Shown piece by piece: positions 1 to 22,353 of a DNA stretch of 22,353 nucleotides. How positions within the stretch are numbered: position 1 is the first letter of the stretch; each line of letters begins with the position of its first letter. Under the pieces are notes generated by a model. The model was not told the origin of the DNA, did not search any database, and saw nothing but the letters and a program-made list of their open reading frames with translations. The stretch is from a virus. Location of the stretch: IMG/VR virus record IMGVR_UViG_3300023198_001654, positions 1 through 22,353 of that record. One strand, given 5' to 3'. Made by a program: the position numbers and the translations under genes.

Positions 1-144
1 GGAGCGGGAGCTGGAGCTGGAGCGGGAGCGGGAGCTGGAGCAGGAGCTGGAGCAGGAGCAGGAGCTGTAGCGGGAGTTGGAGCTGGAGCGGGAGCGGGAG
101 CAGGAGCTGGAGCTGGAGCAGGAGCTGCAGCTGTAGCTGCAGGA
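1..144. repeat. Imperfect hexanucleotide tandem repeat (GGAGCN)n
   Basis: About 23 consecutive hexamers follow GGAGC(G/T/A), with a few variants (GTAGCG, GGAGTT, GCAGCT, GTAGCT). The hexamer period equals one Gly-Ala dipeptide. The left end is not in the window. Such arrays usually expand and contract by replication slippage. Degeneration toward the 3' end (GCAGCT, GTAGCT, GCAGGA) fits an older array edge. Confidence 0.9.
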
Positions 145-2250: not shown

Positions 2251-3066
2251 ATGAGAAACATAACTAACATAACTATGAATAACCCAGGTGAATTTAAATT
2301 AATTGACAAAAATGAAATAATTATTTTGCCACCTTATCAACGGTCTCAAAAATCCGCGAAAAAAAGAATAACCATAAAAAAAATAAAAAGAGAATTTTGT
2401 TGGTCAAAATTTGGAGCTGTTTCTGTATCTTTTAGAAATGGCAAATATTATTGTATGGATGGAGCAGGGAGAGTGACAGTGGCAATGGATTTACCTTCCA
2501 TAACCCTTATTCCGTGTATGGTTTTTTATGGGTTATCCATTGATGATGAAGCAGCATCTTTTATTGATGTTGGAATGAATACAATTGCACTATCATGGTG
2601 TGATAGATACAAAGCCGGTATAGTTGCAAAAGATAGTATTTTTTTGGAATTACAAACGCTTGCTGGAGTTGCAGAGAGAGAAATAATAGGTAGTTCAAAC
2701 AAAAACACAATTGCATGTATAAGTGAACTTCACAAACGATTATCTGATCCTTCTTTAAGAGATCAACTTTTTGATCTTTGGGATTTCTTTATACAACTCT
2801 TTGAAGGATCCTCTTTTGACACAATTGTAATTCGCGGCATCTGTTATTTAGATAGTCATATAGGTGGATTAACAGAATTCAACAAACTACGAATTATTGA
2901 CATTGGAAGTGAACAACTTCTTCGTAATATACGAAAAAAGGTTGCTATCGTTGGTGGAGGAAGTATTCCCATTTATGCATCAGCTATTGCTGAATCCCAT
3001 AACATGAGACTTACATACAGAAAAATTGATCAAAGTTTACTATTGGGTAATAAGTTGACATCATAA
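2251..3066 (+). CDS. ParB/sulfiredoxin-fold protein, DUF6551-like
   Basis: I start this gene at the ATG 4 bp after the RecT stop; the frame stays open upstream, but that part lies inside recT. The product is 271 aa. Its N-terminal third matches ParB-like domains of phage proteins: PPYQRS (27-32), then KRITIKKIKREFCWSKFGAVSVS (38-60), NGKYYCMDGAGR (63-74) with the DGxxR signature, and LIPCMVFYGLSIDDEAASFI (86-105). The position usually occupied by His in DGxHR is Gly. The C-terminal two thirds are helical and not recognised. Related proteins occur in phage early regions with unknown roles. A DNA-binding or nuclease function is only an inference from the fold. Confidence 0.75.
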   Translation: MRNITNITMNNPGEFKLIDKNEIIILPPYQRSQKSAKKRITIKKIKREFCWSKFGAVSVSFRNGKYYCMDGAGRVTVAMDLPSITLIPCMVFYGLSIDDEAASFIDVGMNTIALSWCDRYKAGIVAKDSIFLELQTLAGVAEREIIGSSNKNTIACISELHKRLSDPSLRDQLFDLWDFFIQLFEGSSFDTIVIRGICYLDSHIGGLTEFNKLRIIDIGSEQLLRNIRKKVAIVGGGSIPIYASAIAESHNMRLTYRKIDQSLLLGNKLTS

Positions 3067-3088
3067 GCCTTCCCTGGCATGATTGATT

Positions 3089-3203
3089 TTGCGATGACGG
3101 AAAATAATAAAAACACACCTCAAAAGCAGCCAATAGGGACGATTGGGAGTTGCCTCCCCGCCGTCATCGCAACACCTATTGGTTGCTCTTGGGGTGTGTT
3201 TTT
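3089..3203 (+). promoter_or_regulatory. Overlapping alternative hairpins upstream of the replication gene (putative switch)
   Basis: Two long inverted repeats interlock. Arm A (3089-3100) pairs perfectly over 12 bp with A' (3161-3172). Arm B (3109-3137) pairs over 29 positions with B' (3175-3203), with 26 Watson-Crick pairs, two G-U pairs and one mismatch. The order is A-B-A'-B', so the stems cross. The linkers (8 nt between A and B, 2 nt between A' and B') are too short for both full stems to form together, so they should be alternatives. A small hairpin GGAG/CTCC-type stem (3145-3149 with 3154-3158) sits in the shared loop. B' ends 2 nt before the AGAGG ribosome binding site of the next gene. 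The geometry resembles an attenuator; the regulatory function is inferred. Confidence 0.6.
3109..3203 (+). terminator. Probable intrinsic (possibly bidirectional) terminator
   Basis: The B/B' stem starts with an A-tract (AAAAA at 3109-3113) and ends with a T-tract (TTTTT at 3199-3203), as in bidirectional intrinsic terminators. The stem is up to 29 bp with a 37-nt loop. It lies between the stop of the DUF6551-like gene and the start of the replication gene, so it could end the recombination operon or attenuate read-through into replication. The loop is longer than in typical terminators. Confidence 0.5.
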
Positions 3204-3215
3204 CAGAGGCAAGAA

Positions 3216-4040
3216 ATGTCCCTTCGCGTAAAAGATTGGCATCAGTTCCAGCATTATAAAAATCGCAAACCCCCATGGATACGACTGTACTCAACCCTAA
3301 TTGACGATCCCGAATATCACAATCTAAGTTCTGAAGCTGCAAAAGCGCTTCCTTTGATTTGGCTTGCTGCATCTGAATATTCTATTGATGGAATATTGCC
3401 TGATATTAAACGGCTAGCATTTCGCATGCATTATGATAGCGCCGTGCTAGCAAAACTCATAACCGAGCTTAATCATTGGATTATTTGTGAAGATAACACG
3501 ATGCTAGCAGAGTGCTTGCACCGTGCTATACCAGAGCAGAGCAGAGCAGAGACAGAGAGAGAGACAGAGCAGAGGGAGAGACAGAGTAACACGCATACGC
3601 GTAAGACAAAGACAAATATAGAATTTGACATCTTTTGGAAAGCCTATCCAAAAAAAGTTGGAAAGGCACTTGCCCTCAAAGCCTTCCAAAAGGCCCTTAA
3701 ATCCGGGTTGCCTACAATGGATATCCTGGTAGCCAAAATCGAAAAACTACGAATGTCGGGCCAGTGGAAGCGCGAGAATGGACAATATATTCCAAACCCA
3801 GCTACATGGTTAAATCGTGGTGGATGGGATGATGAGCTCCCAGAAGGTCCAGGTAGAAAGTTGCTGCCACAAGAATTGGCACAAAAAGAAACCGAAGAAT
3901 GGTTAAAAGAACAGGAGATAACCGATGGACAATATGACACTTTCTTTGATTTTGCAAACGATAGCCGAGTCTTACCCGGGGAGGTGGCAACCCACCAAAC
4001 AAACCAACTCAGTGTGGGCAAAGATGTTAAAAGACGTTAA
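3216..4040 (+). CDS. Phage replication initiator (lambda O-like organisation)
   Basis: I choose the ATG at 3216 because AGAGG precedes it at a 6-nt spacing; the frame is open further upstream, but that part is the hairpin region. The product is 274 aa. Residues 1-105 resemble the N-terminal winged-helix region of phage replisome organisers (WHQFQHYKNRKPPWIRLY, then a hydrophobic ALPLIWLAASEYSIDG). Residues ~107-134 are a very hydrophilic Glu/Arg/Gln/Thr linker. Residues 136-206 match the C-terminal module common to phage replication proteins: FDIFWKAYPKKVGKALALKA, then GQWKRENGQYIPNPATWLNR and GGWDDE. This module usually contacts the helicase or its loader. The last ~115 bp are shared with the next gene in another frame. 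Its likely role is to bind the origin and recruit replication proteins. Confidence 0.8.
   Translation: MSLRVKDWHQFQHYKNRKPPWIRLYSTLIDDPEYHNLSSEAAKALPLIWLAASEYSIDGILPDIKRLAFRMHYDSAVLAKLITELNHWIICEDNTMLAECLHRAIPEQSRAETERETEQRERQSNTHTRKTKTNIEFDIFWKAYPKKVGKALALKAFQKALKSGLPTMDILVAKIEKLRMSGQWKRENGQYIPNPATWLNRGGWDDELPEGPGRKLLPQELAQKETEEWLKEQEITDGQYDTFFDFANDSRVLPGEVATHQTNQLSVGKDVKRR
3532..3586 (+). repeat. Purine-rich AGAGC/AGAGA repeat within the replication gene (candidate origin region)
   Basis: Tandem AGAGC copies grade into AGAGACAGAG units, making a nearly all-purine top strand over about 55 bp. It encodes the hydrophilic linker between the two halves of the replication protein. In lambda the origin iterons lie in the equivalent linker of gene O, followed by AT-rich DNA. 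Here GACAAATATAGAATTT follows at ~3610-3625. The origin assignment is by analogy only. Confidence 0.45.
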
Positions 4041-21334: not shown

Positions 21335-21621
21335 AGGTCAAACTCTGTCTTAAACTCAGACCTGCTGACAATGGGGTTTCCATCAATAGTGCCTGAAAAC
21401 TCCGCATAATATCGCTGCTTTACAGTTGAGTGAGGCGTTGGATATGCACAAGAATATATACCAAGTGATTCCCTGGTAACATTTTCGGTATCTGTTAAAA
21501 TAACAGCTCGACTATCATCATATATTTTCAGCGTTGGTGTAGTCACATCTGATAACTCATCATCAGTGTCCGTAAATGTAACCCGAAGGACGATGGTTGT
21601 CCCGGCTTCCACGGTCGTCAT
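21331..21621 (-). CDS. Small beta-rich structural protein (96 aa)
   Basis: A 96-aa protein with ATGA overlaps at both ends, so it is tightly coupled between the repeat protein and the connector. The pattern TTIVLRVTFTDTDDELSDVT followed by LKIYDDSRAVILTDT and KQRYYAEFSGTIDGNP looks like an immunoglobulin-like beta fold, as found in small phage virion accessory proteins. No family is assigned. A role in head decoration or neck assembly is inferred from neighbours. Confidence 0.6.
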   Translation of the reverse strand: MTTVEAGTTIVLRVTFTDTDDELSDVTTPTLKIYDDSRAVILTDTENVTRESLGIYSCAYPTPHSTVKQRYYAEFSGTIDGNPIVSRSEFKTEFDL

Positions 21622-22353
21622 GTCAATATCTCCATTTCCGCTGTCAGTGTTAAAATGCTTAGATTTGCCAATCCACTATAATCAAATATTAGGCCACCTT
21701 GCCCCACCTGATCATATGTAATTACACCTGTGACTGGGAAAACTGCATCATTGGCACCAAATGAAACCGTGGCACCTGAGTATGTGTAGGTACCACCCAA
21801 TAAGGCATCACTTATGTCTGCAACAAACGATACATTAGGCCCAGAATATTCGCACGTGCCGCCCAGGAGATTATCAGAAAACGCTGAGGCCTCAGTAAAC
21901 GAAACGGTTGCTCCCGAATATTCGTATGTGCCCCCTAACAAAACATCAGTATGCTGATAAGTGAAACTTATTGCTGGTCCTGAATACTCGTAAGCTCCGC
22001 CGAGTGGGGAGTCTTGCTTCGCATCGGTAAATGATACCGTTGCACCACTGTACGTGTATGTCCCACCGAGAGGAGAATCAACCTCACCATTTACAAACGA
22101 TACGTTGGACCCAGAATATTCATATATCCCCCCTAATGGGGAATCTTGTTTATCCTCGGTGAATGATACCGTTGCACCACTGTACGTGTATGTGCCGCCG
22201 AGTAAATTATCTTCGTTTGTTGCCGAAGAAGTAAACGAAACGGTCGCACCCGTATATTCGTATGTGCCCCCTAATAGGGTGTCAATCTCACCAATTGTTG
22301 CTGATAATGCCGCACCACTATACTCATATGTCCCACCGAGTAGGACACCTGTG
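21618..22353 (-). CDS. Tandem-repeat structural protein (5' end outside window)
   Basis: The frame is open from the right edge to TGA at 21618-21620, giving at least 244 residues. Nine tandem units of 21-24 residues follow the consensus L-GGTYEYSGATVSF-T then 6-9 variable residues ending in D or D-S-P. The C-terminal 30 residues hold a degenerate tenth unit (GGLIFDYSGLANLSI). Each unit looks like a beta-hairpin or strand pair, so stacking into a beta-solenoid or fibre is plausible. The start codon lies beyond the window. Next to connector genes, it may be a head fibre or decoration protein; I do not recognise a family. Confidence 0.75.
   Translation of the reverse strand, partial: TGVLLGGTYEYSGAALSATIGEIDTLLGGTYEYTGATVSFTSSATNEDNLLGGTYTYSGATVSFTEDKQDSPLGGIYEYSGSNVSFVNGEVDSPLGGTYTYSGATVSFTDAKQDSPLGGAYEYSGPAISFTYQHTDVLLGGTYEYSGATVSFTEASAFSDNLLGGTCEYSGPNVSFVADISDALLGGTYTYSGATVSFGANDAVFPVTGVITYDQVGQGGLIFDYSGLANLSILTLTAEMEILT
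21732..22343 (-). repeat. Nine in-frame coding repeats of 63-72 bp
   Basis: Units of 22, 24, 23, 22, 22, 21, 24, 22 and 24 codons. Units 3 and 5 share at least 32 identical consecutive bases (at ~22030 and ~22162, 132 bp apart), while unit 4 between them differs. So part of the array grew by copying a two-unit, 44-codon block. Units with TYTYSGAT alternate with units with EYSG(S/P)N followed by VSFV. Confidence 0.85.

Follow-up and report, generated by a model that had tools for sequence, protein, structure and literature searches.

A candidate folding switch in the leader of a phage replication initiator, and a covarying RNA family at the head of other replication operons

Why should two pairs of inverted repeats interlock immediately upstream of the gene with which a phage starts copying its DNA? 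The question is raised by the virus record IMGVR_UViG_3300023198_001654, here called the window (the whole stretch of 22,353 bases that was analysed), in which a crossed arrangement of four arms directly precedes the gene for a replication initiator (Table 1). An earlier note, made from the sequence alone, had read this element as an attenuator or RNA switch for phage replication. This is still the best-supported reading, on account of a promoter predicted at the first arm, the predicted order of folding, a bias towards G-U pairs and the existence of crossed leaders elsewhere. Stated in full, namely that the element is a cis-acting 5' leader of the initiator mRNA that works as a folding switch with a gate set by leader translation, it has in our estimate a probability of about 0.55. 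The general notion of a cis-acting switch is rather probable, while gating by leader translation, taken by itself, is a tentative proposal that we would put below even odds.

The arms follow one another in the order A-B-A'-B', and their positions, lengths and spacings were recovered from the sequence and an inverted-repeat check just as the earlier note had given them. A and A' (TTGCGATGACGG/CCGTCATCGCAA) form 12 perfect base pairs (bp), B and B' pair at 28 of 29 positions (two of them G-U, with one A-C mismatch left over), and the linkers are 8 and 2 nucleotides (nt) long. The five-base U-tract sits inside the B/B' stem, whose end lies one base upstream of the ribosome-binding site AGAGG, in agreement with the claim that the last arm stops just before it. 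The fold is beyond chance, since the RNA of positions 3060-3230 reaches -67.1 kcal/mol (z = -6.15, with none of 200 shuffles equally low), the 22-kb window contains no perfect 12-bp inverted repeat within 200 nt other than A/A', and when the 5' segment was shuffled 20,000 times a 12-bp complement to the B-B' interior arose once. With A:A' intact and the helices stacked end to end, a simple span calculation leaves room for about 22 of the 29 B pairs. No match to Rfam 15 was found in the window at the gathering cut-off, and a permissive threshold returned noise only.

Table 1. Features of the element and of the gene that follows it, in window coordinates
Feature	Positions	Strand	Description and basis
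Predicted sigma-70-type promoter	3055-3083	+	TTGACA-17-(TG)CATGAT; consensus match; transcript start predicted at about 3090
Arm A	3089-3100	+	Predicted transcript 5' end; includes leader start codon ATG (3094-3096); sequence, inverted repeat, shuffles
Candidate leader open reading frame	3094-3231	+	45 codons (MTENNKNTPQKQPIGTIGSCLPAVIATPIGCSWGVFFRGKKCPFA); 16-nt overlap with initiator start
Arm B	3109-3137	+	5' arm of long terminator-like stem; opens with an A-tract
Small hairpin GGGAG-TTGC-CTCCC	3145-3158	+	Between B and A'; present in predicted folds before and after the switch
Arm A'	3161-3172	+	Perfect complement to A
Arm B'	3175-3203	+	TTTTT at end (3199-3203); termination predicted here, or stem adjoining the ribosome-binding site
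Initiator ribosome-binding site	3205-3209	+	AGAGG; sequence
Phage replication initiator gene	3216-4040	+	274 residues; phrog_270 (1.5e-23), phrog_26426 (2.7e-23): replication initiation/replication protein

The promoter, the leader open reading frame (ORF) and the wider family described below were absent from the first reading and have been added by the follow-up analysis. The promoter-like site is the best-scoring one between positions 2000 and 4500 (10/12, with an extended -10), and its predicted start falls on the first bases of arm A, which would therefore be the 5' end of the RNA. When folding is predicted from 3090 with growing 3' ends, A:A' (11 pairs) is the minimum while the end lies at 3172-3184, and B:B' takes over some 15 nt later, from 3188, and is complete at 3203. 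The proposal that A/A' forms first and is later displaced by B/B' is supported, as a prediction, by this co-transcriptional folding. A weak promoter-like sequence (TTGGCT-18-TATTAT) is also seen inside the element on the minus strand, at 3133-3104, and could start an antisense RNA.

Does this arrangement recur? Homologues of the initiator were fetched from viral contigs and genomes via alignments of its N-terminal domain, and 136 distinct upstream regions were compared. Descriptors of contiguous helices were adopted because a test based on imperfect-duplex energy had no power: even the members of the sequence family presented next (family I) did not stand out by it. A descriptor combining the first hairpin with crossed arms matched 21 of 106 regions, whereas of their reverse complements it matched 1 of 106 and of shuffles 1 of 318, and a tight, window-like descriptor matched three of the 136 (the window, locus L017 and, more weakly, L252) against none of 408 shuffles. 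By pattern, an element of the form TGGCG...CGCCA was found in 34 of the 136 regions, one or two of which may be chance pattern matches, and with a compensated variant in L286 and L311 the number of family I regions comes to about 36. Other anchors gave different returns: DUF6551 relatives yielded nothing, RecT relatives led to other replication modules, and a search with phrog_26426 gave eight matches in 398 genomes of one phylum. L252 and L287 also have crossed leaders of terminator-like form upstream of the initiator, which differ in sequence and layout, and the first arm of L252 has two competing partners. No description of these leaders was found in the literature searched, which lay mostly outside subscription papers.

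Family I is an RNA sequence family absent from Rfam 15, to which its loci gave no match save for one unrelated tRNA. A pattern search of viral contigs returned more than 120 stretches at least, and among the matches listed 109 elements were parsed as distinct, namely L008:914-1015 and 108 further loci (L060-L236). All share one layout. It opens with a 5' hairpin whose loop is UUGGCG, after which come segment C, arm B and a second hairpin with a loop, C', that is paired to C. Next is CGCCAA, the pairing partner of the first loop; a further small hairpin, arm B' and a run of five to nine U complete the element, the start codon lying about 10 nt further on. To judge from the sequences, family I is an A-B-A'-B' double pseudoknot that ends in a putative intrinsic terminator beside the gene. 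Alignment A2, made of 45 representatives, from which the covariance model R1 was built, has pairing bases in 95.2% of cells (76.2% in shuffles, 32-42% with slid partners) and a covariation score of 0.517 as against 0.05-0.09 when slid. Changes on both sides occur in 6 of the 7 C:C' pairs, 5/5 of the first stem and 16 of 18 in B:B', and the loop pairing covaries as well, UUGACG being matched by CGUCAA in L286 and L311. Because in each of the 45 rows C adjoins B without a linker, C:C' and a complete B:B' should, by geometry, not coexist. Most members have a -10-like box whose end is 10-14 nt upstream of the loop, from which the RNAs are predicted to start at the first stem.

The placement of family I is equally regular. 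Exactly one copy was found in each of 20 phage contigs and in each of the two host genomes with a clear match, and among the matches listed 89 of the 109 elements have an initiator homologue no more than 4 kb downstream on the same strand, these initiators belonging to at least six PHROG families. Polynucleobacter (L099) is one named host, and the element is present in one annotated phage genome, of which there are two deposits (MW202462, MW202544). In L101 and L136 a GIY-YIG endonuclease gene stands exactly between the terminator and the initiator, and an HNH-like or other short gene does so among L148, L205, L210, L218 and L235, as if the spot just past the terminator were an insertion site. 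Seven loci (L120, L144, L176, L197, L212, L215 and L217) have a small conserved protein of about 70-85 residues (e.g. MLKFQATEGCEAFINDAGCLVIKQ) between the RNA and the initiator, and the L144 copy had no match in PHROG or Pfam. The order of the family I helices, P1-P2-P3-P1'-P4-P2', is the same as in ribozymes like that of hepatitis delta virus, an identity that was nevertheless rejected, there being no cytosine at the expected catalytic place before P2' and no Rfam match.

How does the window relate to this family? Model R1 does not match it even at E = 10, and by sequence the window is therefore not a member. It has the same A-B-A'-B' order, the same hairpin between B and A' and the same position directly upstream of the initiator, and it is without the second kissing helix C:C'; topology and place are common, sequence is not. 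By its architecture it belongs instead with L017, L115 and L270 in a looser class, marked by an arm A placed where the RNA is predicted to begin, a crossed B/B' and a leader ORF of 37-45 codons that runs from A and overlaps the initiator start. L017, from a 47-kb phage contig, has 12 pairs in A, 30 positions in B, linkers of 3 and 1 nt that by the span estimate exclude coexistence of the full stems, and a promoter-like consensus match (TTGACA-17-TAGGGT) likewise ahead of arm A. In L115, from a PVC-group contig, a terminator stem with U7 comes immediately after the 14 pairs of A, and L270 has 14 pairs in A and a crossed B of 9 pairs. The latter two were recognised by hand, a bulge or a shorter B keeping them outside the tight descriptor. 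Arm A starts 4-6 nt past a -10-like box in the window, L017 and L115 (there is an A-rich stretch there in L270), and L017 and L115 share the predicted order in which A:A' precedes B:B'.

Two further properties of these leaders bear on function. Where paired arms differ from perfect complementarity, the difference is G-U in 12 cases and A-C in one (p = 0.0017 if equally likely), and since G-U on the + strand is A-C on the other, it is pairing of the + strand RNA that selection keeps. In addition, a start codon falls inside the first six bases of arm A in all four class members, and the frame that it opens crosses the element and ends shortly beyond the initiator start (codons/overlap: window 45/16 nt, L017 45/16 nt, L115 37/4 nt, L270 43/4 nt). 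Shuffles give odds of 0.013, 0.041 and 0.076 for the three found by structure alone, the product being about 4e-5. The leader peptides are scarcely similar.

From these elements a mechanism can be proposed. Transcription would start near 3090, leaving arm A as the 5' end of the RNA. A', emerging some 80 nt later, would pair with A and hide the leader start at 3094, as folding prediction and sequence suggest, and with B' out after a further 15 nt or so the more stable B:B' would be expected to displace A:A'. B:B' might then terminate transcription at the U-tract, or clamp the RNA before the ribosome-binding site, and in either case the initiator would be off. A ribosome that had loaded on the leader ORF before A' was made could keep both helices open; it would stop just past the initiator start, transcription would go on and coupled translation would turn the initiator on. 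A:A' would act as a short time gate, tying replication initiation to ribosome loading. The trigger could alternatively be a bound protein or RNA, a choice of which the general cis-acting switch is independent. Family I supports the switch reading in that phages with this initiator have repeatedly placed crossed, covarying pseudoknot-terminators here. It is possible, although we consider it doubtful, that crossed-pseudoknot attenuators in replication-operon leaders are a general, as yet undescribed control of tailed phages, realized in several unrelated sequence families, the gate of the window being its buried leader start. A gate of this type would allow replication only when ribosomes are plentiful, and terminated leaders might feed back on copy number.

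Several observations weigh against the switch. From the lengths of the two linkers, which are correct, the earlier note had concluded that both full stems could not exist at once; this was overstated, because by the same span estimate they are borderline possible when fully stretched side by side, and in L115 both helices could coexist. The L017 stem, having no U-tract, is not an ordinary intrinsic terminator. The class of the window comprises only four members, without close relatives and too few for covariation within the class, and 89 of the 136 homologous initiator regions have neither the family I element nor a terminator. As to the leader ORF, no clear ribosome-binding site precedes its start in the transcript of the predicted promoter, the ORF test was post hoc, L270 was found via its ORF, and upstream ORFs with such an overlap are frequent, 55 of the 136 regions having one.

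The same arms could be read in other ways. One is that the segment encodes a small, stable RNA, some 115 nt in length, that acts in trans, for instance as a copy-number or superinfection signal pairing with the same leader on other genomes, the initiator being reached by read-through. The predicted promoter at its 5' edge, the hairpin at its 3' edge and the single copy per phage speak for this, and the CI RNA of P4 offers a precedent for control of phage replication genes (PMC4825925). We hold this to be unlikely, because a conserved unpaired seed is absent, most family I positions being in covarying helices, and because read-through would have to be controlled in cis anyway, the ribosome-binding site lying too near the U-tract for another promoter. 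Somewhat less likely again is that B/B' works constitutively, as an unregulated terminator or a hairpin for RNA processing that separates two phage genes, and that A/A' has no role of its own. Long near-perfect stems are suitable for RNase III, as this one would be, and a 29-position stem with a U5 end downstream of a gene end is what a plain terminator looks like. Such a hairpin leaves unexplained, however, why A/A' is beyond chance and why crossed arms recur at the same place in unrelated sequences, and a fixed terminator would silence the initiator, which directly follows.

A role at the level of DNA, either as a cruciform part of a replication origin or as repressor operators at the promoter, could be suspected from an element that adjoins the initiator gene and whose arm A overlaps the predicted transcript start. 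It is made improbable by the 12:1 preference for G-U on the + strand RNA, by the free variation of paired positions in family I with a U-run after them, and by a CAGAG repeat inside the initiator gene that would be a better origin candidate. The main alternative of the earlier note, a mobile inverted-repeat element or its remnant landed ahead of the initiator, fits the inverted arms and the fact that most homologous initiators do without it. Searches for dispersed copies lend it no support: the segment occurs once in its own record, has no match among 50,697 phage records and finds a single chance-level partial match, to the promoter region, among 72,556 plasmids, and exact searches of 2.9 million viral contigs for 19 or for 26 of its bases, as specified, gave no match. 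Family I is likewise single-copy and nearly always heads replication operons. A mobile element was consequently rejected, as a very remote prospect.

Are there known systems that work in this way? Rep control in the I-complex (IncI/IncB/IncK) plasmids acts on translation and involves an antisense RNA. Family I, unlike these, has a terminator, and the element gave no match to plasmid records. In the rep leaders of these plasmids, such as repY-repZ of ColIb-P9, production of the initiator is governed by an RNA pseudoknot together with a leader peptide, much as proposed here, and the loop of the ColIb-P9 target RNA is UUGGCG, the invariant loop hexamer of family I (work cited in PMC10724649 and PMC10286972). 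The hexamer does not occur in the window itself, and the coincidence may be convergent. In satellite phage P4 (CI RNA/seqA-seqC) and related prophage leaders (IsrK) the replication operon is prematurely terminated through pairing of leader RNA, again as proposed here, a processed RNA pairing in trans with seqA and seqC (PMC4825925); in the window the complementary arms are instead crossed within one leader, and no Rfam family, isrK included, reaches its gathering score. Transcriptional fluoride and ZTP riboswitches (PMC11077080, PMC10085676) form a pseudoknotted leader first, which then competes co-transcriptionally with an intrinsic terminator on a similar timing; the competing helices of the window have no nucleotides in common, and no Rfam match was obtained. 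The put RNA of HK022 is an example of structured nascent RNA in early phage transcripts that alters termination, according to PMC9378689, whereas the window has its own terminator-like stem inside the element, next to the regulated gene. Its relation to the I-complex, P4 and pseudoknot-riboswitch systems would thus be one of likeness in working only.

The surroundings of the element are those of a replication module. The initiator ATG at 3216 is supported by its homologues, whose alignments begin at residue 1-3, and upstream on the same strand lie genes for a RecE-like exonuclease (phrog_434), a RecT-like annealing protein (phrog_561) and a DUF6551 protein, the last of which ends at 3066. CAGAG-type repeats at 3532-3586, inside the initiator gene, encode E/T/R-rich stretches similar to those found there in homologues (PETETETE), and are possible origin repeats of the lambda O kind. 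Further away, a GGAGCT hexanucleotide is repeated 23 times at the record end (window 1-139), where it reads as Gly-Ala repeats, and an open-ended ORF with repeated LLGGTYEYSGATVSFT-like units on the minus strand (21618-22352) probably encodes a phage structural protein.

How a phage times and doses its own replication initiator is known in detail for a few models only. In the window the initiator is immediately preceded by a compact leader whose parts can be tested, and what has been newly uncovered alongside it is a widespread RNA family, absent from Rfam 15, at the front of replication operons whose initiators belong to six families or more. Should the switch prove real, it would provide a clean system in which to study co-transcriptional competition between helices, and possibly a link between host translation and phage replication. 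Folding RNA may be widely used by phages to decide when their DNA is copied.
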